Source: a virus. From it: a DNA stretch of 22,975 nt. A program made the position numbers and the translations under genes. The stretch is taken from positions 1 through 22,975 of the IMG/VR virus record IMGVR_UViG_3300035698_006115, one strand, 5' to 3'. Shown here piece after piece: positions 858 through 17,574 of this stretch (position 1 is the first letter of the stretch; every line of letters begins with the position of its first letter). Under the pieces are notes generated by a model, which saw only the letters and a program-made list of their open reading frames with translations, searched no databases and was not told the DNA's origin.

Positions 858-2150
858 ATGCCTAGCATACTTAATCGAATCAAAACGGCAGGGAATGTTC
901 TCCTTGGAAGGAGTATTGCGCCTTTTGATACAAACTGGTACCCATCTGGCATATCGCATCTGTTCAAACCCAAAGAGTCGCTTGATGTCTATGGTGATAA
1001 TGCTTGGCTCTATTCAGCAGTCAATGTGATTGCAGCAGAGGTTGCGCGTACCAACTTTAGACTCGCTATAAGAGATGGAGAGGAGCTTGAATACATAGAG
1101 GAGCACCAAGCTCTTGAACTATTGAAGCACCCGCAACCAATCAAGGGCGGGAAGTCGATGCTTACAGGAATGGACTTGAAGCTCATTACCACAGACCACC
1201 TTTTGCTTAACGGTGAAGCGTTCTGGCTCAAGAGTGGAACATATACGCAGACTGGTGCTCCTGCTTACCTTGACCCACTATTGCCTGAATACATGAAGGT
1301 TGAGGTAGACAAGCTCGGTCAAGTTACGAAGTATGTCTACGATACACAATCACGCACAGTTGATCTCGACCCGCTAGATGTAGTTCATTTCAAGCAGCCA
1401 GACCCGCGAAACTGGTACAGAGGACATTCACCAACAAAGAGTATCCGCTTCTCTCTCGACTCCCACAAAGAAGCAGACACACTCAACTTTAACAAGCTAT
1501 CTAGGGGTGCAGTTCCTTCGGGTATTCTCTCAACTGAGAGCGCACTTACTGAGAGTCAGATTAAGCAAATACGCGACCAATGGCAAACAACGTATGGTGG
1601 AGGAAAGAACGCAGGAAAGACCCCTGTACTACCAAAGGGTGTTACATGGCAGCAAATACAGGAATCAAATGCAGAGATGCAATGGGTGGAAGGCAAAGAA
1701 GTAACGCGAGATGAGATACTAGCGAACTATCGTGTCGGTATGGAGATGCTCGGACGCACAGAAGACCAGACGAGAGCAAATGCTGAGTCGTCTATATTTA
1801 CCTTCATGCGCTTTGGCATCCTCCCACTATTGGAAAAATACGTGGACACGCTCAATAATGATTACCTAGTTATGTTTCCAGAGAGTGAGGAATTGGAGTT
1901 TGTCTTTGACGACCCTGTACCAGAGAACATGGAAGAGAAGCGTTTGAATATTACAACACTCATGGAAAGCACAGCTCTAACACCAGATGAGGCAAGAACA
2001 ATGATGGGACTAGAGCCACTAGAGCAAGCAGGAATCACAGATGTTCCTTATATGTCTTTCAACAAAGTCCCAGCTGGGCAAGTAATGGCAGAAGAGAAAG
2101 AGCCACCAAAAGATGAGAAGCCACCACCAGAGGACAAAAATTTAGAATAG
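858..2150 (+). CDS. Portal protein (HK97 family)
   Basis: The 430-residue protein has the pattern of HK97-type portals: DNAWLYSAVNVIAAEVA near the N-terminus, a LLNGEAFWLK segment, DVVHFKQPDP(R)NWYRGHSP, a loop with RGAVPSGIL, and a late region with EDQTRANAE and FMRFGILPLLEKY. Portals form the dodecameric ring at one vertex through which the terminase pumps DNA and to which the neck attaches. The last 25 residues are a Pro/Glu/Lys-rich linker (EEKEPPKDEKPPPEDKNLE). Two codons before the stop lies a canonical -1 slippery heptamer, A_AAT_TTA at 2138-2144, and the downstream MuF gene is in the -1 frame, so a portal-MuF fusion is possible. The start ATG follows a TAA directly. Confidence 0.95.
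   Translation: MPSILNRIKTAGNVLLGRSIAPFDTNWYPSGISHLFKPKESLDVYGDNAWLYSAVNVIAAEVARTNFRLAIRDGEELEYIEEHQALELLKHPQPIKGGKSMLTGMDLKLITTDHLLLNGEAFWLKSGTYTQTGAPAYLDPLLPEYMKVEVDKLGQVTKYVYDTQSRTVDLDPLDVVHFKQPDPRNWYRGHSPTKSIRFSLDSHKEADTLNFNKLSRGAVPSGILSTESALTESQIKQIRDQWQTTYGGGKNAGKTPVLPKGVTWQQIQESNAEMQWVEGKEVTRDEILANYRVGMEMLGRTEDQTRANAESSIFTFMRFGILPLLEKYVDTLNNDYLVMFPESEELEFVFDDPVPENMEEKRLNITTLMESTALTPDEARTMMGLEPLEQAGITDVPYMSFNKVPAGQVMAEEKEPPKDEKPPPEDKNLE
2138..2144 (+). promoter_or_regulatory. Candidate -1 ribosomal frameshift site A_AAT_TTA between portal and MuF
   Basis: In the portal frame the codons read GAC AAA AAT TTA GAA TAG. AAATTTA fits the X_XXY_YYZ rule exactly (AAA, TTT, A) in the zero frame. 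Slippage by one base moves both tRNAs onto AAA TTT. The -1 frame is open from 2117 through the portal stop and into MuF, with no ATG until 2204 (GTG at 2198). The fusion would be 429 portal residues plus 258 residues, 687 in total. A modest hairpin (TCGG/CCGA with inner GATT/AATC, 2170-2193) lies about 25 nt downstream, farther than the usual 5-9 nt spacer, so a stimulator is not demonstrated. Confidence 0.5.
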
Positions 2151-2197
2151 TACAAACACACAAACAAACTCGGCAGATTGAAACAATCCCCGAAGAT

Positions 2198-2920
2198 GTG
2201 GAAATGCTCTACGATGAGGAAGAGGAGCAGAAGATTTGGGCTGCGCTCTTTGCTACATATATGATTCTTGGATACAAGCAAGGAGTGAATCTCTATGCAA
2301 CGACAGTCAATCCTACCGATCTATTTACACAGAGCGCATTGAGATCAATCCAAGCCAAGAGTTTCAAACATGCTGCGCTCGCTTTGAATACAACGAAAGA
2401 AGAACTACAAAAGCTAATGACTACAGCCATAAAGCAGGGAAGCAGTATTCAAGGACTTGCGAAGGATATAAACGAAATGTATGGCGAATCAATGGGCTAT
2501 AGAAGCAAGATGATTGCTCGTACAGAGATTACAGAAGTTGTAAATGATGGTTCGTTTCAAGTGCTCAAAGCAGAGGGGGCAACTCATAAAGAATGGCGGT
2601 CTGTTATTGATGGAAGGCAGAGAGATAGTCATGGAGCAATGCACGGTGAGACTGTTCCTATGAATCTTCCGTTTGTGCTTCCTGACTATGGAGGAGGCGG
2701 TGGGGTATGTATGAGTCCAGGCGATTCCTCGCTACCACCAGGCGAAAAAATAAATTGTAGGTGCAGAATGGTGAATGCGAAAACGCCTCAGTACAGCAAA
2801 GAGGTTCTTGACGTTCTCTTCCTGCGCTTGCATTCTTCGTTAGAACAAAACTTTGTGGTACAATTGCGTAGAGCTTTTCAGGAACAGCGCAATCGCGTTC
2901 TCTCCCATTTCCCATCCTGA
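2198..2920 (+). CDS. MuF-type head morphogenesis protein (phage Mu F-like)
   Basis: The C-terminal half carries the MuF signature in order: ARTE (107-110), KEWRSVIDGRQRDSHGAMHG (131-150), SPGD (173-176) and INCRC (185-189). MuF/SPP1 gp7-like proteins bind the portal and enter the procapsid in few copies, affecting packaging or ejection. The N-terminal half is helical. Starts available are GTG 2198 and ATG 2204, neither with a Shine-Dalgarno sequence. The frame is open further upstream to 2117 and the 5' extension reads plausibly (QTHKQTRQIETIPEDVE), which fits entry by -1 frameshifting from the portal gene as an alternative or addition to internal initiation. Confidence 0.88.
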   Translation: MEMLYDEEEEQKIWAALFATYMILGYKQGVNLYATTVNPTDLFTQSALRSIQAKSFKHAALALNTTKEELQKLMTTAIKQGSSIQGLAKDINEMYGESMGYRSKMIARTEITEVVNDGSFQVLKAEGATHKEWRSVIDGRQRDSHGAMHGETVPMNLPFVLPDYGGGGGVCMSPGDSSLPPGEKINCRCRMVNAKTPQYSKEVLDVLFLRLHSSLEQNFVVQLRRAFQEQRNRVLSHFPS

Positions 2921-2921
2921 T

Positions 2922-4121
2922 ATGAATAATAGAATCGCAAACACCGCAGAAGTACGCGCAGTAGATCGTAACTCGCGTACCGTTGATGTTATCGCATCGA
3001 CTCCAGCTATTGACAGTTATGGTACTCGTATAGATCAGTCGGGGTGGATGCTGGAAGACTTTCGTAGGAATCCAGTCATTACTTGGGCCCACGATGACAG
3101 AGGGTTCACAGCCTCAGGCGGCCGTCCTATCGCGAAGGCTCTTTCTGAGACTATTCGCGTTGAAGATGGCAAACTCAAAATGCGACTGAAGTTTCCCGAC
3201 AAGGGTAAATTTAGATTTGCAGATGAGGTATATGATTTGCTCGCGGATGGCTTCCTGAATGCTGTTTCTGTTGGCTTCGAGCCTTTGGAAGAACCAGAGA
3301 TGGTGCAAGAAGGTGAGTCAGAAGTGCCAACATATCGAAAGCAGAACCTACTCGAAGTCGCAGTCGTGACAATCCCAAGCAACTCCGAAGCACTCGCAGA
3401 GAGAGCCAAAGCCCTTAATTGTGATGCGAAAGAGATACGAATGAGAGCAGAAGTTATTGAGAAGATGGCAGAGGAGGAGGAAGCAGAAGTAAAGGAAGAA
3501 GTAGCGGAGGTGGTTGAGGAAGCAGAAGAGAAAGAACCAGTAAAGGTAGAAGTAACAGGGGCTTCCCTCTCCGACAAGGAGGAGCAGGAAGCAGTTGAAG
3601 CAGAATCTACAGAGTCAGTAAAGATAGTGGAAGACCCAGATGAAGATGCACGAAAGTACCAAGAATACTTCGAGAAGAAGCAGCCAGTAAATAAGGTATC
3701 AGCTAAAGTGCTTGAAAAGTTCTTCAAGCGCATCCTACTTGATAAGCCCCCAGCAGATGAAATAGAAGCATGGACGAGGGTGGCAGAAGCAATAGATGAC
3801 CTCGCAGCAACAGCAGATGTTGAAGTTGAGGAAGAGAAAGAAGAGGTGACAGAGACAGTAACAACTGAGGTGTCCGAAGAGACACCACCCAAAGAAGAAC
3901 CCAAAGCCGAGGTTGAGGAAGCCCCTCAGCCAGAACAGAAAGCCTCTGTTCAAGTTCCCTTATCAGCCTTTGCCAATCTCTCGGATGGACTCCGAGACAT
4001 TTGTGTAGAAGCAGCCGTGAAAGCCTCACGCAAGGGAGTTCCAATTAAGGACTTGGGTAAAGTCATAGATGCTACAGGTGAAACATTCCTGAGCAATATA
4101 TTTACTAACCAATCTAAATAA
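2922..4121 (+). CDS. Prohead maturation protease (S78, HK97 gp4 type) with long acidic C-terminal extension
   Basis: Residues 1-165 are the protease: DSYGTRIDQSGW (31-42), TWAHD with the likely catalytic His57, the nucleophile in LNAVSVGFEP (Ser116), and LLEVAVVTIPSN (143-154) with Glu145 as a probable third residue. It cleaves the capsid scaffold domain and other procapsid proteins before DNA packaging. Residues about 175-345 are an extreme Glu/Lys/Val/Ala-rich stretch, and a compact C-terminal end follows (LSDGLRDICVEAAVKASRKG). Usual HK97-type proteases are about 200-250 residues, so the extra part resembles a fused scaffold. ATG 2922 is chosen over an upstream in-frame start at 2853 because the latter overlaps MuF and has no protease homology. 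The stop overlaps the capsid ATG (TAATG). Confidence 0.9.
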   Translation: MNNRIANTAEVRAVDRNSRTVDVIASTPAIDSYGTRIDQSGWMLEDFRRNPVITWAHDDRGFTASGGRPIAKALSETIRVEDGKLKMRLKFPDKGKFRFADEVYDLLADGFLNAVSVGFEPLEEPEMVQEGESEVPTYRKQNLLEVAVVTIPSNSEALAERAKALNCDAKEIRMRAEVIEKMAEEEEAEVKEEVAEVVEEAEEKEPVKVEVTGASLSDKEEQEAVEAESTESVKIVEDPDEDARKYQEYFEKKQPVNKVSAKVLEKFFKRILLDKPPADEIEAWTRVAEAIDDLAATADVEVEEEKEEVTETVTTEVSEETPPKEEPKAEVEEAPQPEQKASVQVPLSAFANLSDGLRDICVEAAVKASRKGVPIKDLGKVIDATGETFLSNIFTNQSK

Positions 4122-5518
4122 TGGATGAAGAAAAGAAACCAACGGAGGAAACTAAAGTCGAGGAAGCTAGAGACGCTGAACTTATCAGAAGCATGAAAGG
4201 TAAGTCCAGAGAAGAAAAGGCTGCCATTCTCCATAAGCACATGGAGAAAGACCTCGGTGTAAAGTTTCAAGAGCCAGTGGTTGAACTCACTGACGACCAA
4301 GTTCGCATGATAATTGGTGGCGCAACTAAGGAAGCCAAAGAGGTTCAAGCAAAGGCAGCAGTAGAAGTCGAACGCAAGTACGACATCTCTACAAGCGAAG
4401 CAAACGCTCGCGCAGAGGAGCATATTAACTCAGCTCGCGTAAAGCATGAGCATAGGCTTCAAGACTGGAAAGAATGTGCAAAGGTTCTTCGAGCGATTAC
4501 ACGCACCGCAAAGGGTAGTGCGCAGTCGGGCGAACTACACGCAGCATACGACGCAGAAAAACAGTATATGAAAGCAACAGGTCGTGAAGCCCGATATATG
4601 GACATGGGTACTGATACGAGTGGTGGTTACTTGGGAGGAGAGCTATTCGAGACGATGCTCTACGAGAACATCTCTCGTTACTCCTACGCTCGCAAGTATT
4701 GTACGTTGATTAACATGGAGAAAGAGATTCTCCGTATTCCTAAACTCACCGCTACAGTCACCGCAGAGCAGACCGCTGAGGCAGGTGAAATCACACAAAG
4801 CCAGCCAACATTCGATCAGTTCACACTCAGCACAAAGAAACTCGCTGTGCTGACCAGGCCTTTCTCGATGGAACTGTTTGAAGTAGCAGACCCAGCACTT
4901 GTTCCTGCTCTTATTGAGTTTGCAACAAGGGAGATCAAGAAAAAGGAAGATGATCTTGTCTTCGGCACAGCAGCACCAGGCTTGCTTTCCCACACCACGA
5001 ATAACGTGATAATGGGAGGCAGTACATCTTCTGGTTCAAAAGCAATCACCGACCTAACCTTCGATGATATGCTGAATACGCTGTACGAACTCGACCCACA
5101 CTACATCCCAGATGAGGATATTACAGGCTCACGCCTCTTCTCTTCTGGCGCAGCTAGGTTCTGGATGCCACAGTCGGCACTCCTCGCTCTAGCTAAGTCT
5201 AAGGGTAATGACAATTACCACTGGGCTAGTGTGCAAGAGTTGAAGCACGACAAACGTGTACATGGCTACGACATCAAGAGGTGTCCAGGCATGACCGCAG
5301 CTCCAGCAGTAACAACTCGAACAGGTGTCTTTGGTGACCTTGGCTACATGGTATGTGGAGTCCGTCCAGGCTTCCGTATCGAGCTACAGTCCCAAGGCTC
5401 AGTTGATTCCGTCAACCTGAATGAGACAGGAAGCTACGCAATTCGTGTGGCTGAATTCTTCGACAATGATTCCATTGACGACGATGCCTTCTCCATTCTC
5501 AAAACATCAACTACCTAA
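4121..5518 (+). CDS. Major capsid protein (HK97 fold)
   Basis: The 465-residue protein has an N-terminal charged helical region (about 1-150) that behaves like the HK97 delta (scaffold) domain. A typical start of the mature shell domain follows, GTDTSGGYLGGELFETML (163-180), and then the E-loop/N-arm type sequence ILRIPKLTATVTAEQTAEAG and the later GFRIELQSQGSVD. It builds the icosahedral shell, and the preceding protease probably removes the N-terminal part near the DMGTDTSGG junction. Translation is coupled to the protease gene by TAATG. A strong hairpin follows immediately, which could limit readthrough and make this the most abundant product of the head operon. Confidence 0.94.
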   Translation: MDEEKKPTEETKVEEARDAELIRSMKGKSREEKAAILHKHMEKDLGVKFQEPVVELTDDQVRMIIGGATKEAKEVQAKAAVEVERKYDISTSEANARAEEHINSARVKHEHRLQDWKECAKVLRAITRTAKGSAQSGELHAAYDAEKQYMKATGREARYMDMGTDTSGGYLGGELFETMLYENISRYSYARKYCTLINMEKEILRIPKLTATVTAEQTAEAGEITQSQPTFDQFTLSTKKLAVLTRPFSMELFEVADPALVPALIEFATREIKKKEDDLVFGTAAPGLLSHTTNNVIMGGSTSSGSKAITDLTFDDMLNTLYELDPHYIPDEDITGSRLFSSGAARFWMPQSALLALAKSKGNDNYHWASVQELKHDKRVHGYDIKRCPGMTAAPAVTTRTGVFGDLGYMVCGVRPGFRIELQSQGSVDSVNLNETGSYAIRVAEFFDNDSIDDDAFSILKTSTT

Positions 5519-5576: not shown

Positions 5577-6431
5577 ATGGCTTCAAGCTCAGAATCACCT
5601 TCAGAATCACCAAGCGAATCGCAATCGCGTTCGCCTAGCTCTACAGAATCACCTTCTCAGTCGCCATCTGAGAGCGTAAGCGAATCCCCTTCTGATTCGC
5701 CTTCTAGTTCTGAAAGTCCAAGCCAATCTCCTAGTGAATCGGTAAGCGAATCACCATCAGTTTCGCCTTCGTCTTCTGAATCTGTCTCTGAGTCACCTTC
5801 ACTTAGTCCTTCATCTTCGGAGTCTCCTTCGGAGTCTCCTTCGCGCTCGCCTAGTTCTACGGAGTCTCCATCAAATTCTCCCTCGCTTTCACCTTCAACA
5901 TCAGAAAGTCCCAGCGAGTCTGTGAGCGAATCTGTCTCCGAGTCACCATCTTTAAGTCCTAGTTCTAGTGAAAGTCCTTCGGAGTCTGTAAGCGAGAGTC
6001 CTTCCGAATCGCCCTCTGAGTCTGTAAGCGAAAGTGTAAGCGAGTCTGTGAGCGAATCTGTGAGCGAAAGTGTTTCCGAATCTCCTTCGGAATCTCCGTC
6101 AGAGAGTCCTCCTGCTGCTAATCCATTAGAGTTGATACAAGGCAAGAGACTGCACAAGGTCACCGAAACTAGAGTGCTTGCGGTTGCTGCTTATGTCGTA
6201 ACACTACATTGCGGAGGTTGCAGGAAGATCGAGCTACTTAATAGAGGAGCAAATACAGCATATTTCCGATGTGATGGAACAACACCTACGGTTGCAAAAG
6301 GCGACCAGATTCTTATAGATAGCACCACTCGCAATGGAAGAGTTGTAATTGAGGATGGTAAAATAGAGAATATCAAGTTCATCTGTGATACAGGTGAAAC
6401 AGCCACAGTCTTTGTCCGTATGTACTCCTAA
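5577..6431 (+). CDS. Virion surface/decoration-type protein with serine-alternating N-terminal repeat
   Basis: Residues 3 to about 178 consist of Ser (rarely Thr) at every second position, alternating with E, P, V, L, Q, R, D, N or T (units such as SESPS, SESVS, SPSSSES). The remaining about 101 residues (LELIQGKRLHKVT onward) look like a compact beta domain with NRGANTAYFRCDGTTPTV, a pattern common in small phage head- or tail-surface domains, and end in ATVFVRMYS. Position after the capsid gene suggests a head decoration or fibre protein. The repeat would be an extended, unstructured, acidic projection or an acceptor of glycosylation or phosphorylation (inference). The leader is pyrimidine-rich (TTTTCCCCTTCTCTCTT then ATG) without Shine-Dalgarno. 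Function is not established. Confidence 0.8.
   Translation: MASSSESPSESPSESQSRSPSSTESPSQSPSESVSESPSDSPSSSESPSQSPSESVSESPSVSPSSSESVSESPSLSPSSSESPSESPSRSPSSTESPSNSPSLSPSTSESPSESVSESVSESPSLSPSSSESPSESVSESPSESPSESVSESVSESVSESVSESVSESPSESPSESPPAANPLELIQGKRLHKVTETRVLAVAAYVVTLHCGGCRKIELLNRGANTAYFRCDGTTPTVAKGDQILIDSTTRNGRVVIEDGKIENIKFICDTGETATVFVRMYS
5580..6110 (+). repeat. Coding repeat: period-2 serine (S-x-S-x) low-complexity region
   Basis: The 6-nt periodicity encodes Ser-x dipeptides. All six serine codons occur (AGC, AGT, TCA, TCC, TCG, TCT) and are mixed throughout, for example TCTGTGAGCGAATCTGTG next to AGTCCTAGTTCTAG. This heterogeneity argues that the amino-acid pattern is maintained while the DNA has diverged, rather than being a very recent slippage expansion. 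Similar sequence recurs at 11244-11321 in the tail tube gene. Confidence 0.9.
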
Positions 6432-6436
6432 TCCTT

Positions 6437-6634
6437 ATGCCTAAATATACTACTTCCATCTGTTACTTCTTCCGAGAGAATGGCAAACGCTATGAAGCAG
6501 GAGAGGAAGTTGAACTCACCGAGGAGCAAGCCAGAGAACACAACAGGGTTCATCCTGGTCTTCTCAAAGCAGAACGTATCACAACAAAGGGCAATCCCTC
6601 AAAGGTTGTTCGCACTTCTCGCAAGAGAAAATAG
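6437..6634 (+). CDS. Small basic-tailed protein of the head region (65 residues)
   Basis: The N-terminal part (MPKYTTSICYFFRENGKRYEAGEEVELTEEQAREHN) has a YExGEEVELTEEQA pattern that occurs in small proteins found between capsid and neck genes of many phages, perhaps a small beta-rich unit. The C-terminus is strongly basic (RTSRKRK). It starts 5 nt after the previous stop with no Shine-Dalgarno sequence. Function is unknown. A role in head completion or DNA contact is only a guess from position and charge. Confidence 0.65.
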   Translation: MPKYTTSICYFFRENGKRYEAGEEVELTEEQAREHNRVHPGLLKAERITTKGNPSKVVRTSRKRK

Positions 6635-6638
6635 CGTG

Positions 6639-6647
6639 TGATATAAT
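6639..6647 (+). promoter_or_regulatory. Extended -10 promoter TGATATAAT
   Basis: A perfect TGn-TATAAT (TATAAT 6642-6647) lies in the 40-nt gap before the gene at 6675. No good -35 is seen, which is normal for extended -10 promoters. Transcription would begin near 6654 and give a leader of about 20 nt that is almost all C and U (TTCTTTCTAACTTTTTC). Confidence 0.65.
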
Positions 6648-6674
6648 GTCCTTACTTCTTTCTAACTTTTTCAA

Positions 6675-7262
6675 ATGGCTAAATTACGAGATCAAAAGGT
6701 AAACATGACAGGACGAGTCGTCTTGAGCGCAGCAGGGCTAATAGCTGCGGGTGCAATCGGTGGTGGACTCCTCTTGAATGAATTTACCGCTGAAGACACT
6801 CCGACCAATTCCACATTCGTCGCCCAAGATGAACTGAATATAGCATTCACTCAGACTGGTGGACTCGTTTCAAGCGTTGCCAAGTATGACAACTTATTTG
6901 TGATGAATCCTCTTAGCCTAATGAGGCAGTATCCTGCTGACGGTGATTCTGCTACAGGAGCAGTAATCGGAGGTTCTGGTACTGTTATTCGACTCACATA
7001 TGAGAACTACAAGAACCCAGAAGAGGCGAGCTTCGATTGTTTCTTCGCTACATCAGCCAATGCTGGTTCTGGCGCAGCTCTCGGAGATTTGATTCTTGAA
7101 AACACTGGAACAGCTACAGGAGCACTCGCAAGCTACACAACTGGAACAGCGGTGTGGCCAGGCGATTCATACCTTATCTGTGTAACCTCCACAACTATCG
7201 CAGAAGATAGCCCATTCGAGGCTAGGCTGCGGGTAACATACGAAGACCGATACGGAGAATAA
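6675..7262 (+). CDS. Putative membrane-anchored or virion beta-rich protein (195 residues)
   Basis: Residues about 13-35 form a hydrophobic segment (VVLSAAGLIAAGAIGGGLLL) preceded by basic residues, consistent with a signal anchor. The remaining 160 residues are Thr/Ser/Gly-rich with alternating hydrophobics (TVIRLTYENY, FEARLRVTYEDRYG), suggesting a beta-sandwich. It has its own extended -10 promoter and a CU-rich leader, and a terminator follows, so it forms a single transcription unit within the late region. It could be a surface protein of the infected cell or a minor virion protein. I do not recognise the family. Confidence 0.65.
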   Translation: MAKLRDQKVNMTGRVVLSAAGLIAAGAIGGGLLLNEFTAEDTPTNSTFVAQDELNIAFTQTGGLVSSVAKYDNLFVMNPLSLMRQYPADGDSATGAVIGGSGTVIRLTYENYKNPEEASFDCFFATSANAGSGAALGDLILENTGTATGALASYTTGTAVWPGDSYLICVTSTTIAEDSPFEARLRVTYEDRYGE

Positions 7263-7278
7263 ATTTAGAATCAGCATA

Positions 7279-7306
7279 GGGGTTAGTGCTCGCACTAGCC
7301 TCTTTT
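7279..7306 (+). terminator. Rho-independent terminator
   Basis: A 10-bp stem (GGGGTTAGTG / CACTAGCCTC with two G-U pairs) closes a CTCG loop and is followed directly by TTTT (7303-7306). It lies 17 nt after the stop of the preceding gene. The rest of the 203-nt gap to 7466 is A/T-rich (a run of TA steps near 7365-7375) and contains the promoter at 7395-7423. Confidence 0.8.
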
Positions 7307-7394
7307 GCGTATAAGTAGCAAATTCTGAGAGTATAGAGCTATTCACTGCTATATTATTATAATACATATATATATAAAAGTCTTTACAATTTGC

Positions 7395-7423
7395 TTGCAC
7401 TCCACTATACCTTTCTATATACT
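7395..7423 (+). promoter_or_regulatory. Promoter TTGCAC-N17-TATACT
   Basis: TTGCAC (7395-7400) and TATACT (7418-7423) are separated by exactly 17 nt, and AT-rich DNA lies upstream. Transcription would start near 7430, giving a leader of about 35 nt that ends in a C/U-rich block (TTACTTCTTTCACC...TTTCACTC) before the ATG at 7466. Confidence 0.6.
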
Positions 7424-7465
7424 AAAGACAGTTAATAAGTATTACTTCTTTCACCCCTTTCACTC

Positions 7466-7663
7466 ATGGACACGAAGCTACTAAAGGACATTGATGAATT
7501 ACTACTAAGTCCTAACCATTGTAAAGAATCTATTCATAAAATGTTAGCTTGGCACTGCTCTAACCCTGCCGCACTTCAAGTCTTAAAAGAAATTGATAAA
7601 TATTTAGATAGTAAAGTCTGTACCGTTCCTAATTGCTTTGCGTTAAAGCGATTTTACAATTAG
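7466..7663 (+). CDS. Hypothetical 65-residue protein in moron-like cassette
   Basis: A small helical protein (MDTKLLKDIDELLLSPNHC...) with four cysteines and two histidines spread through it (HCKES, WHCSN, VCTVPNC). The spacing does not match a standard zinc ribbon. It is the first gene of a three-gene unit bounded by its own promoter (7395-7423) and flanking terminators. The start has a CU-rich leader and no Shine-Dalgarno. I do not recognise a family. Its placement suggests an accessory function unrelated to virion assembly. Confidence 0.6.
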   Translation: MDTKLLKDIDELLLSPNHCKESIHKMLAWHCSNPAALQVLKEIDKYLDSKVCTVPNCFALKRFYN

Positions 7664-7689
7664 TTTTTATTCTCTTTCCTCTTTATGCA

Positions 7690-7884
7690 ATGGTAGATGA
7701 CACTACATTATTGACTCACACCCCTTGGAATATACTTGCCAATGCTCCTGAGCTTTTAAGGGCTTGTGAGTGTGCAAGTGAAGACCTAAGCACCATTTTA
7801 AGTGGTGCGGAATACCACAAAAGCGCAGTACAGGAAACGCTTGATATTCTTGCCGAAGCAATTAAGAAAGCCAAAGCTAAATAG
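7690..7884 (+). CDS. Small protein of the 'PW...NAPELL' phage family (64 residues)
   Basis: Residues HTPWNILANAPELLRACECA followed by a helical tail (ILAEAIKKAKA) look like a shortened version of a common phage and prophage family whose members read PGPWHV...NARLIAAAPELLEAL...AIAKA. The middle beta-rich portion of that family is missing here, leaving the N-terminal TPW and the C-terminal NAPELL helix joined. Function of the family is unknown to me. ATG 7690 is chosen because the upstream part of the frame overlaps the previous gene. A TACAAT at 7655-7660 could drive it. A related longer protein is encoded on the minus strand at 22119-22640. Confidence 0.6.
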   Translation: MVDDTTLLTHTPWNILANAPELLRACECASEDLSTILSGAEYHKSAVQETLDILAEAIKKAKAK

Positions 7885-7909
7885 TCCTACCTTTTACCTC
7901 TTTAATCTT

Positions 7910-8044
7910 ATGAGTGACACCGAACGCGCCAACTACTACAAGAACATGCTTGAATGGCTGCTGTATCAGGCAGGGCATAAGGATGGGCATATTCCCGAAG
8001 CTGAATGTGAGCTTATAGAGAAGTGCCTTGCAAAAGGAGCATAG
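7910..8044 (+). CDS. Hypothetical 44-residue protein
   Basis: The short protein begins MSDTERANYYKNMLEWLLYQ and continues AGHKDGHIPEAECELIEKCL. It is acidic and helical, with a His/Cys-containing second half. A longer in-frame reading upstream overlaps the previous gene and is unlikely. The start is preceded by a pyrimidine-rich stretch (CCTACCTTTTACCTCTTT) and no Shine-Dalgarno. It is the last gene before the hairpins at 8055-8137. Function unknown. Confidence 0.55.
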   Translation: MSDTERANYYKNMLEWLLYQAGHKDGHIPEAECELIEKCLAKGA

Positions 8045-10037: not shown

Positions 10038-10257
10038 ATTCTATTTTTCACAGACTAACGAATCAATAAAGGCTAAGAACATCGAAGAAGCCAAACTGAT
10101 TCAGGCGAGAAGGGCGCGCAAAGCAAGGAAGAAAGCAAGGAGTTTGGCTAAGAAGCAATCGCCAGTAGCAATTAAGAAAGCACCACCCTTTCCAAAGAAA
10201 AGCACACCAGTTAAAAAAGTGGTAAAATCTCCATCAGTCACTACCCCTTCTAAATAA
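10030..10257 (+). CDS. Highly basic 75-residue protein (Lys/Arg/Ala/Pro-rich)
   Basis: The protein begins MPKFYFSQTNESIKAKN and is then dominated by basic residues (RRARKARKKARSLAKKQ) and a Lys/Pro/Ser/Thr tail resembling histone H1-type tails (KKAPPFPKKSTPVKKVV). ATG 10030 lies 7 nt inside the previous gene's end (ATGCCTAA overlap). Its stop overlaps the tail tube ATG (TAATG). An extended -10 box lies near its 3' end. Function is unknown. A DNA- or RNA-binding role or a small structural role is possible from composition only. Confidence 0.65.
   Translation: MPKFYFSQTNESIKAKNIEEAKLIQARRARKARKKARSLAKKQSPVAIKKAPPFPKKSTPVKKVVKSPSVTTPSK
10220..10228 (+). promoter_or_regulatory. Extended -10 promoter TGGTAAAAT for the tail tube gene
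   Basis: TGn-TAAAAT (hexamer 10223-10228) lies inside the end of the basic protein gene. The predicted start near 10235 would give a leader of about 22 nt ending in CACTACCCCTTC before the tail tube ATG at 10257. The same arrangement of a 25-29-nt distance and a CU-rich leader is seen at 6639 and 20427. Confidence 0.5.
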
Positions 10258-11324
10258 TGGCCAATACAGTAGGCGCACTACGCAACATCGGAATGGCAAT
10301 TGAATCCGAATCTGGAACTGCCGATGATATTACTCACTGGATTCCAATCTCAAGCGGAAAAGCAATCCCAGAGACAGAGTATGTTGAGGATGAATCAAAC
10401 TTTGGTCGCATGGAAGCACCTGTTGGCTCTGACGTTGTTACGGAGAACACACTTATCGAATTTACAGCACCAGCACGAATGGACTGGATGGGCTTGCTAT
10501 TCGCCAGTCTCATTGGAGAGCCTTCAAGCGAACTTACAGAGGCAGATGTTTATTATCACACTTATACGTTCGTAAATTCACCAGTACATGACACACTGAC
10601 AGTTAATTATGATGATGGAACAGCAGATGAGAGCGCAACATATTGTTTACCGACTGCGGTTTCTCTATCTTGCGAAGCGAAGGGTAAACTAATGGCAGAT
10701 GTATCGCTTAGGGGACAATCCCTTGCCACTGATACAGAAACACCAGCATATACTTCCTTCCAGAAGATAATGGGGTCTGGCGTGGCGATTAAAGTTGCAT
10801 CAGATATATCTGGCCTCGGTGCAGCGGGAGTAGTTGCTTTCCATGAATTCAAGCTCGACTTTGACCCGAACATTCTCAGCCATCAGGCGTTCGGGACTGG
10901 TACTCTGACAAAGAATCTCACTCAGTCAATGCGAATTACAGGTGAGCTAAAATTTCTGCGCGATGGGAATACATACCGTGATTATGTGACGGATGGTTCG
11001 ACTATGGCAATGCAGATTAAATGTACAGGAGCAACACTTATCGGTGCTACCGAGTATCCGTACATTCAGATCAATCTAGCCAATGTAAGTTTTGAGAGCT
11101 ATGACGTAACAGATTCTAACCGTGAAGCAGTCGTAGAAACAATCGGCTTCACCGCTCAATTCGATGCGGATGAAAGTACCCCAGCAATGATAGGTGTCGT
11201 TATTCAGAACTCGGAGAGCGGTGGGTACTACCAGTCGGTAGACAGTTCCTCGTCTGAATCTTCCTCTGAGTCACCATCAGCCTCGCCATCTTCATCAGAG
11301 AGTCCATCAGTATCTCCTAGTTGA
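10257..11324 (+). CDS. Major tail tube protein with serine-alternating C-terminal tail
   Basis: The 355-residue protein has typical tail tube features: the N-terminal segment MANTVGALRNIGMAIESESG, a PVGSDVVTENTLIEF strand, the middle FDPNILSHQAFGTGTL, and MRITGELKFLRDG followed by a beta-rich C-terminal region. Copies stack as hexameric rings around the tape measure. The last 26 residues consist of Ser at nearly every second position with E, P, A or V between, the same low-complexity type as in the protein at 5577-6431. Many tail tubes carry a C-terminal surface domain; here that place is taken by this tail. The start overlaps the previous stop. Confidence 0.88.
   Translation: MANTVGALRNIGMAIESESGTADDITHWIPISSGKAIPETEYVEDESNFGRMEAPVGSDVVTENTLIEFTAPARMDWMGLLFASLIGEPSSELTEADVYYHTYTFVNSPVHDTLTVNYDDGTADESATYCLPTAVSLSCEAKGKLMADVSLRGQSLATDTETPAYTSFQKIMGSGVAIKVASDISGLGAAGVVAFHEFKLDFDPNILSHQAFGTGTLTKNLTQSMRITGELKFLRDGNTYRDYVTDGSTMAMQIKCTGATLIGATEYPYIQINLANVSFESYDVTDSNREAVVETIGFTAQFDADESTPAMIGVVIQNSESGGYYQSVDSSSSESSSESPSASPSSSESPSVSPS
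11244..11321 (+). repeat. Serine-alternating low-complexity tail of the tail tube gene
   Basis: The sequence encodes SSES/SPSS units at the very C-terminus of the tail tube protein. Codons are again mixed (AGT, TCC, TCG, TCT, TCA). It is a second, independent copy of the repeat type at 5580-6110. It would project from the tail surface in every subunit (inference). Confidence 0.85.
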
Positions 11325-11361: not shown

Positions 11362-11835
11362 ATGGAAATCATACTACCTTATTGCGAAAAGAAAGTTGTA
11401 CTCAAGAAGTACATACCTCATGGCGTTTCTACGCGCTTTCAACAGACAATGTTTAAGGGGGTGAAAACCAATCTCGGTTCTCTCAACCCAGACAGGGGAG
11501 ATTTGGCTGAGAGATTTGGTAAGAATCGTATGAAGGCATTGGATAAGCTGAAAGATAAGGAATACGAAGCTGAGCTTAGGAAGATGCAGTCTGAATATGT
11601 TACTGCAAAGATGGAATTGGAAGATGCTGGTATAGGCAATATGGAAGAAGCCAATATGGTGAAGATTCTTGGAATGGTAATCTCTATGAATGGCAAGCCA
11701 GCAGAAAGAGAGGCAATCGAAGACTTACATGAGCTTGATTACACAGCAATTCAAGATGCTATTGCTGAAATTGAGAACCTCCCTTTAGAAAAGCCATCAT
11801 CGAAGGAATCTGGGAGCACGTCGAAGGAGGAGTAA
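11362..11835 (+). CDS. Tail assembly chaperone, G-like (zero-frame product)
   Basis: A 157-residue protein between the tail tube and tape measure, in the position of lambda gpG. The N-terminal part has MEIILPYCEKKVVLKKYIPHGVSTRFQQ and the middle is helical (MKALDKLKDKEYEAELRKMQ). A Glu/Ser-rich end follows. A CCCTTTA heptamer near codon 141 allows a -1 shift into a second open frame, producing a longer GT protein. Such G and GT proteins hold the tape measure and recruit tail tube subunits, and are not in the finished virion. A promoter may lie just upstream. Confidence 0.82.
   Translation: MEIILPYCEKKVVLKKYIPHGVSTRFQQTMFKGVKTNLGSLNPDRGDLAERFGKNRMKALDKLKDKEYEAELRKMQSEYVTAKMELEDAGIGNMEEANMVKILGMVISMNGKPAEREAIEDLHELDYTAIQDAIAEIENLPLEKPSSKESGSTSKEE
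11781..11787 (+). promoter_or_regulatory. -1 ribosomal frameshift site C_CCT_TTA for the G/GT tail chaperones
   Basis: Zero-frame codons are CTC CCT TTA GAA, so CCCTTTA matches X_XXY_YYZ (CCC, TTT, A) exactly in the reading frame. The -1 frame is open from 11775 to the stop at 12029 and encodes protein-like sequence (the gene before the tape measure in all lambda-like tails). The G and GT organisation is established for many long-tailed phages. No clear downstream hairpin was seen, though a GTCGAAGGAGG repeat follows. Confidence 0.82.
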
Positions 11836-12029
11836 GCGATGAAATGGCAGCATGGGAAGTAAGAGGATTTCTGCTAAGGCAAGAGGTTTATCATTGTACA
11901 AGAAAGGAGCTAGAGGAAATGAACACTGATGATGTTCTGATTGATTGGAATACGCGAGAGGCAATGCGTATCGCAAACAACAAAGCACAGGATGACAAAA
12001 AACGGTACAATAAGCGTAAGTTACCTTAG
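11787..12029 (+). CDS. Tail chaperone T extension (part of the G-T frameshift fusion protein)
   Basis: This -1-frame segment joins the G protein at the CCCTTTA site to give a fusion of 222 residues: 142 from G and 80 here. The segment reads RKAIIEGIWEHVEGGVSDEM followed by AAWEVRGFLLRQEVY, then DDVLIDWNTREAM, and ends in a basic tail (KKRYNKRKLP). The W...RGFLLRQEV motif fits the T-domain of tail assembly chaperones. An independent ATG at 11844 could also be used, with no Shine-Dalgarno in a normal position beyond an incidental GGAGG in the G gene. The gene ends 6 nt before the tape measure start. Its basic helices may bind the tape measure (inference). Confidence 0.75.
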   Translation, partial: RKAIIEGIWEHVEGGVSDEMAAWEVRGFLLRQEVYHCTRKELEEMNTDDVLIDWNTREAMRIANNKAQDDKKRYNKRKLP

Positions 12030-12035
12030 CATTAA

Positions 12036-14378
12036 ATGGCTCTCCTTGATTCCAAAACAATCGAATATGTTATTCGCGTCAAAGACGAGGCGAGCAAGGA
12101 ATTTCGCAATCTATCCAGTACAATCGAGAGGTCACAGGCAGATTTGAGAAGGGCTGGAATGGCCATGACTGCAATGGGGGTGGCAGGAGCGTTTGCAATT
12201 AAGACGCTTGGGGGAGCAGCAGGAGAACTACAGCAGACTACTAGGGCATTTGAATCACTGACTGGTTCAGTATCAGTCGCAAAATCCCTTCTCTTGGATT
12301 TGTCAAACTTCGCTGCGAAGACACCATTCACATTGCAAGGTGTACGAGATGCAGGAAAGCGTATGCTTGCGTTTGGCTTCGAGGCACAACAAATCTTACC
12401 GATATTGAAAGACGTTGGTGACATATCAGCAGCAGTCGGACTTGATGATGCTGGATTCAGACGAATCATTTGGAACTTGGGACAAGTACAGGCAAAGGGA
12501 AAGCTAACAGGTGTTGAAATAAAAGACTTCGCAAACAATGCAATCCCACTTGTCGATCAGTTGGCAGAATCGTATGGAAAGACAAAGGCAGAGATTTACG
12601 CAATGTCAGAAGCGGGAGAGATTTCTTCTGATATGGTAATGAAATCTTTTCAAGATATGGCAGGAGAGGGAGGGCGATTTGAAGACTTTATGGCGAAGAA
12701 CTTAGGAACACTTCCGCAGATGGTATCTAACTTAGGTGACTCCCTCGCTATTCTTGGAGAGAAGCTAGGCGCACCGCTTGTCGCTCCACTTAGTATGTTG
12801 GCAGAGAAGATAACTGTTTTAGCAGACGCAGTAGGGGCATTTGTAGAACATAATCCAATGGTAGCAACTATAGGAGCATCGTTGCTTCTTATCGGTACAG
12901 CACTTCTACTTATAGCTGGCCCATTGGCAATGATGATTTCAATGCTACCACTTTTCATAAAGGGATTGGCTGCATTAAAGGGATTGGCAATTATTGCTGG
13001 GGGGGCTTTATCTGGGATGCTATGGCCGATAACTCTTATCATAGCAGCCACCGTTGCACTTGGGGTTGCGGTCTATGCGCTCTACCAGTTATGGGATGAG
13101 AACTTCTTAGGAATGAAAGACCTCACCCAGCAATGGGCTGACTTTGTGGTGGTACTTGTTGGTGATGTGATAGCTATTTGGCAGGGCTTTCAAGAATACT
13201 TCGGTATTCTTTGGGAGAATGTAAAATTCCTTGTGGGCGGTGCGAGTGAATATCTTTTCAATCTATTGCCCTCAACGATGCAGGGGATAGTTACGATGAT
13301 GGTGGCAATATGGAATGGATTTGCAGTTTTCTTTGGTGGGATATGGCGAGCAATGTCGGGAACAATAATTGGTGCGCTCGCTCTTATTCATGGCATCTTT
13401 ACTGGTGCAGGAAAGGCAGCACTTGAACAGGCTTGGTGGACTATGCTTAGTGGCATAGGAAATATCTCACTTGGTATTACAAATGGAGTAATCTCAATTG
13501 TAGAAGGTATGGTCAATGCCATTATTGGCATAATCAACAGCCTACTTAAAAGTATGAATGTGCTTCTGAGTCTTATGCCTGATTGGGCTATTAAGAGCAT
13601 ATTTGGTGGGAACCGAAAATTGGAATTCGGGAAAGTAGAATTTGGAAGGATGGAATACTATGAAACTCCTTCTCTTGCATCATTGATAGATCAGAACAAG
13701 AAAGGAGCAGAGAATCCCTTTAACAAGATGCTAGATAAAATGAAAGATGTTGTTGATACTGGTGGAGCAGGAGGAGGTGGAGGGGGAGGTGGAGGGGGAG
13801 GTGGAGGAGGCAAGAAAAAGACTGCCAGTGATGCAGACCAGCGCACATGGCTTGAAAAGAAAGTAGACGAGATTGCAGCAGGTGGACAAGATCAATCGGG
13901 GCCGCTTTCATTTTCAAGAGGATTGCAGAGGAGATTGGAGCAGAGAGCAGCCGAAGAGGAAAAGCAGCGGGAAGCAACCGAAGCAGCCGAAGTTGCAGAG
14001 AAAGCGCGAATCATTCAGAGATATGGAGAAGCGCGATACAACAAGACAAGGCAAGATGAAACTGATGCAGCTATTTATAGAGCAGAAGGTGAACGTGCAA
14101 GCGAAACAATTACCAGAATACTTGCAGATGATGCACAGAAACGAGCAGCGTATGGAGATATGGATGGTCAAGTAAGTGGCTTGTCGCAGCAGGGGCAGGG
14201 CTACTCGTATTCCAATCAATACGATTCAAGTACGCAGGCAGTAAAAGAAGAATTGCGAGATGTGGGAATAACTATCAATGTTGATGGCTCTATTATTGGT
14301 GCAAGCAAAGAAGATTTGGCTCAGTTGATTGGTGATGAGTTGATGAAGCAACTTGGATTATTAGTACCGGCTAGATAA
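12036..14378 (+). CDS. Tape measure protein
   Basis: The 780-residue protein begins with the tape-measure N-terminal pattern (YVIRVKDEASKEFRNLSSTI, then MAMTAMGVAGAFAIKTLGG). The conserved core is VRDAGKRMLAFGF...GVEIKDFANNAIPLVDQLA. Hydrophobic segments near 285-355 (LLLIGTALLLIAGPLAMMIS, LWPITLIIAATVALGVAVYAL) and more helices follow. A pure Gly run (about 578-592) precedes a basic, charged coiled-coil end. It sets tail length (at roughly 0.15 nm per residue, about 115 nm, an estimate) and is released during DNA entry. The stop overlaps the next ATG (TAATG). Confidence 0.93.
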   Translation: MALLDSKTIEYVIRVKDEASKEFRNLSSTIERSQADLRRAGMAMTAMGVAGAFAIKTLGGAAGELQQTTRAFESLTGSVSVAKSLLLDLSNFAAKTPFTLQGVRDAGKRMLAFGFEAQQILPILKDVGDISAAVGLDDAGFRRIIWNLGQVQAKGKLTGVEIKDFANNAIPLVDQLAESYGKTKAEIYAMSEAGEISSDMVMKSFQDMAGEGGRFEDFMAKNLGTLPQMVSNLGDSLAILGEKLGAPLVAPLSMLAEKITVLADAVGAFVEHNPMVATIGASLLLIGTALLLIAGPLAMMISMLPLFIKGLAALKGLAIIAGGALSGMLWPITLIIAATVALGVAVYALYQLWDENFLGMKDLTQQWADFVVVLVGDVIAIWQGFQEYFGILWENVKFLVGGASEYLFNLLPSTMQGIVTMMVAIWNGFAVFFGGIWRAMSGTIIGALALIHGIFTGAGKAALEQAWWTMLSGIGNISLGITNGVISIVEGMVNAIIGIINSLLKSMNVLLSLMPDWAIKSIFGGNRKLEFGKVEFGRMEYYETPSLASLIDQNKKGAENPFNKMLDKMKDVVDTGGAGGGGGGGGGGGGGGKKKTASDADQRTWLEKKVDEIAAGGQDQSGPLSFSRGLQRRLEQRAAEEEKQREATEAAEVAEKARIIQRYGEARYNKTRQDETDAAIYRAEGERASETITRILADDAQKRAAYGDMDGQVSGLSQQGQGYSYSNQYDSSTQAVKEELRDVGITINVDGSIIGASKEDLAQLIGDELMKQLGLLVPAR
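13761..13812 (+). repeat. Poly-glycine coding run with tandem GGAGGTGGAGGG units
   Basis: Gly codons GGA, GGT and GGG follow each other in a partly tandem 12-nt unit, giving about 15 Gly in a row in the tape measure (residues about 576-592). It is a flexible hinge between the membrane-active middle and the charged C-terminal part. Such G-rich repeats are prone to slippage, so its length may vary between isolates. Confidence 0.8.
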
Positions 14379-17110
14379 TGGCCACTACTATTTACGTCAA
14401 TGGCGCAGATCAGACTGATGATGTTGAATACAAGTCAGTTCGCTTTCGTAGAGAGACGGGTTTCAAGCCTTCGACGCTGCGCTTTCGGATGCGGAATCTA
14501 ACCACTCTTCTTAGTGAAGGCGATTTGGTGGAGCTATGGGAGGACACGACGCTCATGTTCTCTGGGCTGATAATGGCGATGAATACAGATTCCCCACTAC
14601 CAGAGAAGCGTATGCAGGTCGATGTTGTGGATTGGTTCGATGCACTCGCTCAACGCTTCGTGAGAACAACATACGAGAATAAAACTCTTACAGAGATCGT
14701 GCAGAATATCATTGCGGAAAGGGTACTGGATGAAGACCTGCGTATCATGCTGCAATTCGAGGATGGCTCTGGTGCCGTTGTCACAGACTCATCTCAACAC
14801 CTAAATCATGGATCAGTCGAGGGGGCAGGATATACATGGGGCAACTATTACTTGGAATTGGACGGTACTTCGGGGCTGTTTGTAAGCATCCCAGACGACA
14901 ACTCAATTGATCTGGGTAACTATATGTCTCTCTGTATCGAAGTAAACCTTGATGCTCTGACGCGCACACTCATTGAAAAGGAACAGGGGGATAGCCCATA
15001 CAAGGTAGAAGTAGACGCGGCTGGCGAGATTATCTTCACGGTAGCTGACAGCATTACAACCTACAATGTTACCACAGCCACAGCCCCTATCTCAACTGGG
15101 ACTGCTTATACAATCGTATGCACATTCAATCGCTCGACGGGACTCGGAAAGATTTATGTGGATGGAGCACTTGTAAAGTCTGGCACATTGACTACCAACC
15201 CCCTACGTGCATCCACAGGAGCATTGGAGCTAGGCGAAGACGCGAATGATCTTGACGGAAAGATTTATCGTTTCTCTGCCTATGCGCGCGACTTGAGTGC
15301 AAAGGAGGTGCGAAGATGGCACATCGATGTACTCGAAGCCAAAGCACCAGCGAGGGTTCTAAGTGACTTTGCTACCAGCAATTTCGACAGGATAACTTTC
15401 AGCTATAAGTTCCCCACCGATTGCTTCACTGACATGGCAAAGACTCTGGGATTGTCATGGTACATAGACGAAGAGATGTATGTGAATTTTACTTCATTGA
15501 CTGGAACATCGGTTGCCACTTTTGATGAAGATGATGGGACAATAACAAAGGGCGCGAGTGCAGACACATTTCTCTCCGATGTGAAGAATCGTATTTTCGT
15601 GCGGGGTGGTACATATCTCGGGACTTGGCGATCTGATGTGATGAAAGCGAATGGTAGCGACACGGTGTTTTCTCTGCCTTACAAGTACAGTAGATTTGAG
15701 CTTTTCACAGACACCGTTGGATTGTGTGGTAGTATACAGTCATGGTACAAGATGGACGAAGTCTCTGGCAATCTAGCAGACGCATTTGCAGTCAATACCT
15801 TAACTGCTGCCAATCTCACTTATGGGGAAACAGGACAACTCGGTGACGCAATTGATTTTAATGGCACTAACAGTTCAGCCCGAAAGACTGGAGCAACGCA
15901 TGACACTGGCAATACGGCTCATTCTATCACGGCATGGATCAACGCAGACACTCATGATACTACGCAACGCATCGTTGCGGGATTCGGCGATTTTGCAGGA
16001 GGTCACAGCAAACTATCCCTCATAGTTGTCGGTGGTTCTTATTATCTAAGACATGATTTTGGTGATGCCATTACTACTGATCTATTGTCAGGTGATCTTT
16101 CAGGTGGTTTTCATCTTCTTGGGATGTCCTATGACCCCGACTTAGATGCTGGCAAGACCTTGCGTATGTATGTGGATGGAGCACTAGGAAGTACAACTGT
16201 TCTTTCTTCCACACCAGATATTGACGCGGGAGTGATTGAGATAGGCGGTAACAATGGCTCGAATGTAACGGATGGAGATATTGATGATGTTACTTTCTTC
16301 CAGTATGCGCTCTCAGATCAGGAGCAGGAAGCGATTTACAACATGGGAAACACCTCAAAGCTTTCGATGGCCATGATTCGTTCTGGTGTTGAGTTCTTGA
16401 ATACGACTGGATACGATGGCTATTACAACTACCAAGAGAAGAACTACAGCTTTGATACAGCTCCTTCCGATGGCGACGTCCTGTACCCAACAGGCGAGCC
16501 TGAAGTGCCAGCAATCGCAGTTCGGAGTGATGGAGTTTCACAGGAGGCTTATGGTACGCGCGATATACAGATTATAGACAGCACTATCGAATCACAGACG
16601 CTTGCGCGGGCGCGCGCGGAGGCAGAACTCGCGAAGAGGAAAGACCCGAAGACGACAATAAATCTCTCAACATACGTTGCAGGGATAAATCCAGGCGATA
16701 CCGTGACTCTTACAATGACTTCCTATGGCATTTCGGGAACGTACTTTGTGCAGAGAGTGAATACTACTGCATATTTGCCAGTGACATCGGGTACAAAGAA
16801 GTGGCTCTACGATTTACAGTGTACAAATTCTGAGTCAAGAGATTGGATTGATTTCTTAAGGGATAGCTTCGAGGCAGGGCGAGTGAGGCCAGTACCGTTG
16901 GAAGATGTGATTGAAGATGCTGTAGACCATGCCGAAAACATCGAGGTTTCTGATACGCAGACTATCAAAACACCGACAGATCATGCCGAAGATTTTACTG
17001 TGGACGATTCGACAAGTTTGAATGTCGTGACCAGTGGGAACTATAAATGGTCTAACGACGCAGAGAATACAGTGGACAGGCTGAGATACGGGCTGGGCGA
17101 CTGGGGCTAA
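14378..17110 (+). CDS. Tail hub/tip protein with two inserted LamG-like (concanavalin-fold) domains
   Basis: The 910-residue protein has a hub-like core: MATTIYVNG to about residue 117 (ITFSYKF-type hubs have KTLTEIVQNIIAE), then 321-448 (ITFSYKFPTDCFTDMAKTLG, NRIFVRGGTYLG) and 658-840 (YGTRDIQIIDSTIESQTLAR, NPGDTVTLTMTSYGISGTYF). Two insertions interrupt it. One, at 118-318, contains a LamG pattern (SSQHLNHGSVEGAG, IYVDGALVKSG, GKIYRFSAYARDLSAKEV). The second, at 451-657, repeats it (SWYKMDEVSGN, AWINADTHDTTQRIV, MYVDGALGSTT, DIDDVTFFQYALSDQE). LamG-like domains often bind glycans, so the tip may contact host surface polysaccharide (inference). The hub core resembles the lambda/T4 gp27-like or gpD family. 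The last region (about 841-910) has repeats around DHAE. Its stop overlaps the minus-strand gene. Confidence 0.8.
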   Translation: MATTIYVNGADQTDDVEYKSVRFRRETGFKPSTLRFRMRNLTTLLSEGDLVELWEDTTLMFSGLIMAMNTDSPLPEKRMQVDVVDWFDALAQRFVRTTYENKTLTEIVQNIIAERVLDEDLRIMLQFEDGSGAVVTDSSQHLNHGSVEGAGYTWGNYYLELDGTSGLFVSIPDDNSIDLGNYMSLCIEVNLDALTRTLIEKEQGDSPYKVEVDAAGEIIFTVADSITTYNVTTATAPISTGTAYTIVCTFNRSTGLGKIYVDGALVKSGTLTTNPLRASTGALELGEDANDLDGKIYRFSAYARDLSAKEVRRWHIDVLEAKAPARVLSDFATSNFDRITFSYKFPTDCFTDMAKTLGLSWYIDEEMYVNFTSLTGTSVATFDEDDGTITKGASADTFLSDVKNRIFVRGGTYLGTWRSDVMKANGSDTVFSLPYKYSRFELFTDTVGLCGSIQSWYKMDEVSGNLADAFAVNTLTAANLTYGETGQLGDAIDFNGTNSSARKTGATHDTGNTAHSITAWINADTHDTTQRIVAGFGDFAGGHSKLSLIVVGGSYYLRHDFGDAITTDLLSGDLSGGFHLLGMSYDPDLDAGKTLRMYVDGALGSTTVLSSTPDIDAGVIEIGGNNGSNVTDGDIDDVTFFQYALSDQEQEAIYNMGNTSKLSMAMIRSGVEFLNTTGYDGYYNYQEKNYSFDTAPSDGDVLYPTGEPEVPAIAVRSDGVSQEAYGTRDIQIIDSTIESQTLARARAEAELAKRKDPKTTINLSTYVAGINPGDTVTLTMTSYGISGTYFVQRVNTTAYLPVTSGTKKWLYDLQCTNSESRDWIDFLRDSFEAGRVRPVPLEDVIEDAVDHAENIEVSDTQTIKTPTDHAEDFTVDDSTSLNVVTSGNYKWSNDAENTVDRLRYGLGDWG

Positions 17111-17574
17111 GATAAGCCATAATCAGGGGTATTGATCTTATGCCATTCCATATGATGAGTATGACATAGGAAACGAACTTCTAATGGCATTGAGTAATCA
17201 TCATGGTGAGCTTCGGTCTTCCAATGCCCACACTTTTCACATGGGAATCTTCTCCATTTGCCACTTCTTATTTTTTGATTCAATGCACTATGGGCTTTTG
17301 CTTGGGCTGCTATTTTTGGATCACTCTTCCTGCGAGCAAGAATTGATATATTATTATCAGAATAATAGTGTTGCTTATAATGATTATGACATAGCTTATT
17401 GCAGTAATGGGGCTTATTACATCCGTCAATGCTACATCCAACAAATCCTCTATTGATTCTCAGTATTAAATCTCCATTCAATCTCCATCTGGAATAATGT
17501 GTTATACATAATCCTCTCCCATGCACCTTTTTAATGCATCCATCTGCCGAACAATGTAGTATCGTTTTACTCAT
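17107..17574 (-). CDS. HNH-like zinc-finger protein, probable homing endonuclease
   Basis: The 155-residue protein has two Cys/His fingers (C8-C13-C23-H26 and C47-C52-C62-H65) and a C-terminal module CEKCGHWKTEAHHDDYS...LCHTHHMEWH. That module matches the phage HNH/zinc-finger pattern CxxCG...EAHHxDYxxPLxVxxLCxxHHxxWH. Such genes are often free-standing homing endonucleases inserted between phage genes. It lies in antisense orientation inside the rightward tail operon. The 3' end overlaps the hub gene stop by 3 nt. The gene is more A/T-rich than the neighbours. It has its own minus-strand promoter (17587-17615). The catalytic metal-binding His residues look intact, but activity is unproven. 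Confidence 0.75.
   Translation of the reverse strand: MSKTILHCSADGCIKKVHGRGLCITHYSRWRLNGDLILRINRGFVGCSIDGCNKPHYCNKLCHNHYKQHYYSDNNISILARRKSDPKIAAQAKAHSALNQKIRSGKWRRFPCEKCGHWKTEAHHDDYSMPLEVRFLCHTHHMEWHKINTPDYGLS

Follow-up and report, generated by a model that had tools for sequence, protein, structure and literature searches.

Portal and MuF genes at the locus

The window, i.e. the whole stretch of DNA analysed here, is an IMG/VR record of 22,975 bases from a virus of bacteria. The features relevant to the analysis are:

858-2150 (+): portal gene, HK97-type portal; zero-frame product of 430 residues with the C-terminal residues KNLE
2138-2144 (+): A_AAT_TTA, a slippery heptamer in frame with portal, two codons ahead of the stop
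2144-2197 (+): -1-frame segment RIVQTHKQTRQIETIPED, from the slip site to the first possible start; linker of the predicted fusion
2144-2920 (+): MuF moiety of the predicted fusion, 258 residues, -1 frame relative to portal
2148-2150 (+): zero-frame portal stop TAG
2198-2206 (+): candidate internal MuF starts GTG 2198 and ATG 2204, the first start codons of the -1 frame, without a Shine-Dalgarno (SD) sequence
2922-4121 (+): prohead protease/scaffold gene (PF04586, 1.8e-7)
11781-11787 (+): tail-chaperone slippery site C_CCT_TTA (G/GT-type), with GAA following TTA as at the portal end; T frame open from 11775

The portal protein matches Pfam PF04860 (Phage_portal, 4.1e-57) and is of the HK97 type, scoring 126.8 bits against TIGR01537 (portal_HK97; cut-off 112.05); in PHROGs it matches phrog_12 and phrog_2662. 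MuF matches PF04233 (Phage_Mu_F, 4.3e-17) with 63.3 bits, above the curated cut-off of 29.6, as well as phrog_2468 and, again, phrog_2662. The latter is a portal-MuF fusion family that takes in both halves of the window locus; it is annotated as portal, and its C-terminal part matches MuF.

A slippery heptamer in the portal-MuF overlap

The portal gene ends GAC AAA AAT TTA GAA TAG, and the MuF frame is uninterrupted between 2117 and the end of MuF at 2920, overlapping portal at 2117-2150. An X_XXY_YYZ heptamer is thus read in the zero frame where two ORFs overlap, as expected for a -1 frameshift site. The first-pass annotation had described this heptamer in the portal frame with MuF in the -1 frame, the first -1-frame starts at GTG 2198 and then ATG 2204, a fusion of 687 residues (429 + 258), and a second heptamer that also has TTA in the A site; all of this was confirmed on the sequence.

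In-frame X_XXY_YYZ heptamers occur at 18 of the 5741 codon pairs in the window (0.3%), a rate at which the expectation for the 11 overlapping portal/MuF codon pairs is ~3%. A_AAT_TTA itself is found in frame once in the whole window genome. Similarly, in-frame T_TTA is found once in 4571 codon pairs of the relative L009 and once in 2448 of the relative L090, both times at the portal end. TTA occupies the A site of just one further in-frame heptamer in the window, C_CCT_TTA at 11781. The tail-chaperone overlap spans 11775-12029 in the window, and its counterpart in L009 has G_GGA_AAA at 14120.

Conservation of the site and the -1 frame in relatives

The relatives are uncultivated viruses, only a handful of which are close enough for comparison. 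Searches with single-protein patterns from the window MuF and portal recovered no relative, and no DNA similarity of the window to the phage collection was found; L009 was found via its capsid protein, and is 49%, 44% and 56% identical to the window in portal, MuF and capsid, respectively. Counted from the slip site onward, the window MuF is 44-45% identical to those of L009 and L090. The gene order portal-MuF-protease-capsid is kept in the window, L009, L090 and L127. In L009, the prohead protease/scaffold ORF (5620-7977) contains an AAA+ ATPase domain (PF00004, 7e-18) between its protease and scaffold parts; this insert is absent from the corresponding ORFs of the window, L090 and L127.

The first-pass annotation had proposed conservation of the heptamer and of a gap-free -1 frame as checks on frameshifting. 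The portal genes of L009 (GCA AAT TTA GCC GCG TAG) and L090 (portal 51% identical; GCA AAT TTA GCC GCG TGA) end with an identical in-frame A_AAT_TTA at 4859-4865 and 2776-2782, respectively, 2-3 codons from the portal stop and with MuF in -1. By contrast, conservation is partial in the other members: L127 and L128, from two metagenomes (portal 55%), end CCA TCT TTA GCG GCG TAG, keeping T_TTA and losing the XXX (A_TCT_TTA), and L091 (portal 46%), whose MuF is likewise in -1, lacks a canonical heptamer and instead has CAA AAG, i.e. an A_AAG tetramer. Among tetramers, A_AAG is the one on which E. coli shifts most efficiently (PMC4066793). All five clade members have an uninterrupted -1 frame.

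These comparisons also bear on the explanation that the heptamer is a chance occurrence, or that a sequencing or assembly indel has split one fused gene. The close outgroups are single-ORF fusions, and one indel in the DNA read would yield the picture seen in the window; however, the identical split site is present across contigs of different metagenomes (window, L009, L090, L127 with L128, and L091 with L112) at ~45-55% protein identity, and the stop lies 2-3 codons past the site in the window, L009, L090 and L127. We therefore regard an artefact or chance as very improbable.

The unshifted portal proteins of three relatives end in LAA (ANLAA at 4863-4874 in L009, ANLAA at 2780-2791 in L090, and SLAA at 6237-6248 in L127), and that of the window in NLE. 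The LAA ends resemble the ssrA degradation tag; this may simply follow from conservation of the slip site, or may make free portal unstable.

Protein-level constraint ahead of any MuF start codon

Reading on from the portal stop, the MuF frame reaches its first ATG, GTG or TTG after 140 nt in L009, 83 nt in L127 and 38 nt in L091. In all three, conservation of MuF sets in at the junction or shortly beyond it, upstream of the first start codon, with conserved N-terminal stretches such as KFSRVAT..GIGDIFDEGAE and IFSGVAT..GIGDIFDEDEE. Near the junction, L009, L127 and L091 thus have no MuF start; the exceptions are L090, in which GTG 2788 overlaps the portal TGA (GTGA) as a possible coupled start, and the window, with GTG 2198 and ATG 2204.

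Segment 2144-2197 was aligned with its counterparts in L009, L090 and L127, and pN was lower than pS in every pair (e.g. 0.20 vs 0.58 for L009-L127 and 0.44 vs 0.57 for L090-window), in line with the purifying selection that the first-pass annotation had suggested looking for. In permutation tests, the 18-residue extension of the window resembled those of the relatives (p = 0.009, modest taken alone). For L009, L090 and L127, control frames scored as somewhat similar too, owing to the remaining resemblance of the three at the DNA level; therefore, pN/pS and the missing start codons outweigh the permutation test. In total, the pattern of substitution indicates that the -1 product is under protein-level selection upstream of any start codon.

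These data can be set against the possibility that MuF is made alone by translational coupling, with ribosomes re-initiating on GTG 2198 or ATG 2204 (window), on the GTG within GTGA (L090) or on a non-standard codon elsewhere. GTGA and ATGA overlaps likewise put the next gene in -1; other lineages (L020, L069, L075, L086) have MuF as a gene of its own, starting with ATG or GTG where portal stops, and the starts available in L090 and the window make independent translation of MuF possible in both. However, L009, L127 and L091 have no ATG, GTG or TTG at or shortly past the stop, and the conserved protein starts upstream of those present. Moreover, coupling leaves the conserved A_AAT_TTA and T_TTA unexplained, and the 47 nt between the portal stop and GTG 2198 are unusual in a tightly packed gene row in which neighbouring genes mostly overlap or abut. 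We conclude that coupling is an unlikely explanation.

Single-ORF portal-MuF fusion in neighbouring lineages, a probable ancestral state

The nearest outgroup portals, those of L129 (47%) and L093 (35%), are fused to MuF in one ORF, as confirmed by Pfam. Single-ORF portal-MuF genes are also found in the neighbouring lineages L158, L023, L028 and others, and with most of the further portals at ~30% identity. In a quick tree of 87 portals, with SH-aLRT as the only support measure, the five -1 members (window, L009, L090, L110 = L127, and L091) group together with support of 94, beside L129 and L093. The portal domain followed by the MuF domain in one polypeptide is thus present in L129 and L093 as single ORFs and would be present in the window only if the frameshift occurs. 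Because this polypeptide is encoded by one ordinary ORF in L129 and L093, a portal-MuF fusion is the expected product.

In an AlphaFold model of the L129 single-ORF fusion, the portal part matches the GTA and HK97 portals; the model is of low confidence (pLDDT 62) and uninformative on the linker and the position of MuF. In the related phage L147 (3253-4983), a portal ORF that is 39-43% identical runs on, but the stretch that follows is shortened and no MuF domain can be recognised in it.

A programmed -1 frameshift as the preferred reading

Altogether, these observations support the earlier reading of a -1 frameshift at the portal-MuF junction. We consider it probable (~0.83) that programmed -1 ribosomal frameshifting makes portal together with a minor, 687-residue portal-MuF fusion. 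The majority of ribosomes would stop at TAG 2148, giving the 430-residue portal. A minority would slip back one base at A_AAT_TTA, with tRNA-Asn re-pairing on AAA and tRNA-Leu on TTT, and would read past the portal stop in the -1 frame to give the fusion, with the joint ...EDKNL-RIVQTHKQ.... Because it carries a full portal subunit, the fusion could enter the portal dodecamer, and the shift rate would then set the number of MuF domains on the ring. We infer the frameshift itself, its rate, the portal:fusion ratio and the co-assembly of the fusion with plain portal.

The same heptamer, beside a stop, is used by Rous sarcoma virus. As a bare tetramer in E. coli, U_UUA shifts at just 1.8-3.6 times the background level even when a pseudoknot is present (PMC4066793). 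Stimulatory RNA structures and SD-like elements often accompany -1 sites without being required. RNA folding downstream of the window site gave no structure beyond shuffled sequences (z about -1.1), and over the stretches examined z for a downstream pseudoknot or hairpin ranged from -1.8 to +1.9, except in L127 (-2.7 over 120 nt). In L127, a hairpin carries the slip site in its loop; the window shows nothing comparable. Immediately ahead of the window slip site is an AGAGGA run, with no visible counterpart in L009. With UUA-type sites performing poorly in E. coli and no stimulator detected, the shift rate is likely low.

Other lineages with MuF out of the portal frame

In L027, L041 and L045, MuF is in the -1 frame, which opens at GCA AAA AAA AAC (A_AAA_AAA/C) and has its first start codon 86-128 nt beyond the end of portal; L085, the sister of these three, has the fusion in a single ORF. 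In the pre-start segment of L027, L041 and L045, dS is saturated and dN is 0.20-0.41, again in line with protein-level constraint. L029 has C_CCT_TTT followed directly by TAG and groups with the single-ORF fusion L018; an ATG is also present upstream. L072, L074 and L082 have T_TTT_TTT and a first MuF start 116 nt past the stop; their position in the tree is unsure (long branch), and they are probably prophages of sequenced bacterial genomes, as their IMG record numbers do not belong to the metagenome series.

Of the 24 loci whose MuF is not in the portal frame, 10 lack an early MuF start and 14 have one; a heptamer is present in the overlap in 7 of those 10 vs 2 of those 14, related loci being counted separately and thus not independent. 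On the portal tree, the -1 arrangement adjoins single-ORF fusions at least three times. The arrangement has apparently arisen several times, with at least two further unrelated groups beyond the window clade.

Some of these runs could also be slipped on by RNA polymerase, whose stutter would alter the frame in the mRNA: L027, L041 and L045 have nine A, and L072 and L082 seven T. However, AAATTTA in the window, L009 and L090 is not a homopolymer and suits tandem re-pairing of tRNAs, and for the window we see little chance that transcriptional slippage accounts for the arrangement. As to ribosomal slippage at the portal-MuF junction, we lean towards the view that it is a recurrent, unrecognised device of tailed phages that arose at least three times from single-ORF fusions, each origin bringing a different slippery run (A_AAT_TTA; A_AAA_AAA/C; C_CCT_TTT; possibly also T_TTT_TTT in the prophages of sequenced bacteria), and that would turn a portal ring with MuF on all twelve subunits into one with one or few MuF domains.

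Relation to known systems

The first-pass annotation had been aware of no published portal-MuF frameshift, and our full-text literature searches, which covered open-licence papers, also found no described case combining portal, MuF and a frameshift. Each element is already known, portal-MuF fusion from single-ORF genes and -1 shifting from tail chaperones; no report of both combined was found. Portal is not mentioned in the available part of a 2016 review of recoding (PMC5009743), and the PRFect paper lists MuF-like genes among 'false positive' frameshift calls, tied to VIP2-MuF fusion genes and not to portal slippage.

The single-ORF fusions (phrog_2662; Geobacillus phage GBK2, Bacillus phage Silence, and Microbacterium phage DickRichards with its 'portal and MuF-like fusion protein'; PMC7302621) match the predicted product in both domains, their order and their place. 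They put MuF on every portal subunit, whereas in the window two frames are used and the fusion would come from shifted ribosomes only. The lambda G/GT-type tail-chaperone -1 frameshift (PMC5009743) also has a counterpart in the window genome, at 11781. However, tail chaperones are absent from mature virions, whereas portal and MuF are structural head proteins; both gene and purpose differ.

Frameshifted virion proteins are also known, namely the major head protein of Lactobacillus phage A2 (-1) and SPP1 gp17.1/17.1* (+1; PMC6316719); in these, a small, fixed share of a structural protein receives a C-terminal extension by recoding, as proposed for the window. The recoded proteins of A2 and SPP1 belong to the capsid or the tail tube, whereas the proposal here concerns the portal ring. 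In SPP1, gp7 of the MuF family is encoded by a separate gene and binds portal gp6 non-covalently (PMC6316719); by contrast, attachment in the window would be covalent and set by recoding.

In other phages, MuF carries toxins or helps in DNA delivery. If the proposed frameshift is true, recoding in the portal gene itself would tie the copy number of the internal head protein MuF to the twelve-subunit portal and would explain how a ring that is symmetric can receive just one or two copies of MuF. Annotated MuF starts in many phages would then also need correction.

Initiation signals and other features of the window

The first-pass annotation had taken the missing SD of MuF as a sign of frameshifting. 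MuF indeed lacks one; however, none of the gene starts tested in the window has a convincing SD, with a weak match at 11362 alone, and therefore the argument was rejected as uninformative. Many gene starts in the window are preceded by pyrimidine-rich leaders. Together, the absent SDs and these leaders point to a host with SD-independent initiation, as judged from the window genome. A scan of genome contigs for the host gave a best match of only 19%, and no tRNA genes were found in the window.

A Ser/Pro/Glu repeat (SPSESVSES...) without a Pfam match makes up most of one structural-region protein (5577-6431) and recurs at 11250-11324, the C-terminal end of the tail gene at 10257-11324. Finally, a Cys/His-rich ORF of 155 residues (17107-17574, -) lies inside the tail module on the opposite strand; it has the look of an HNH-type endonuclease by eye, and Pfam gives just a sub-threshold zinc-finger match.
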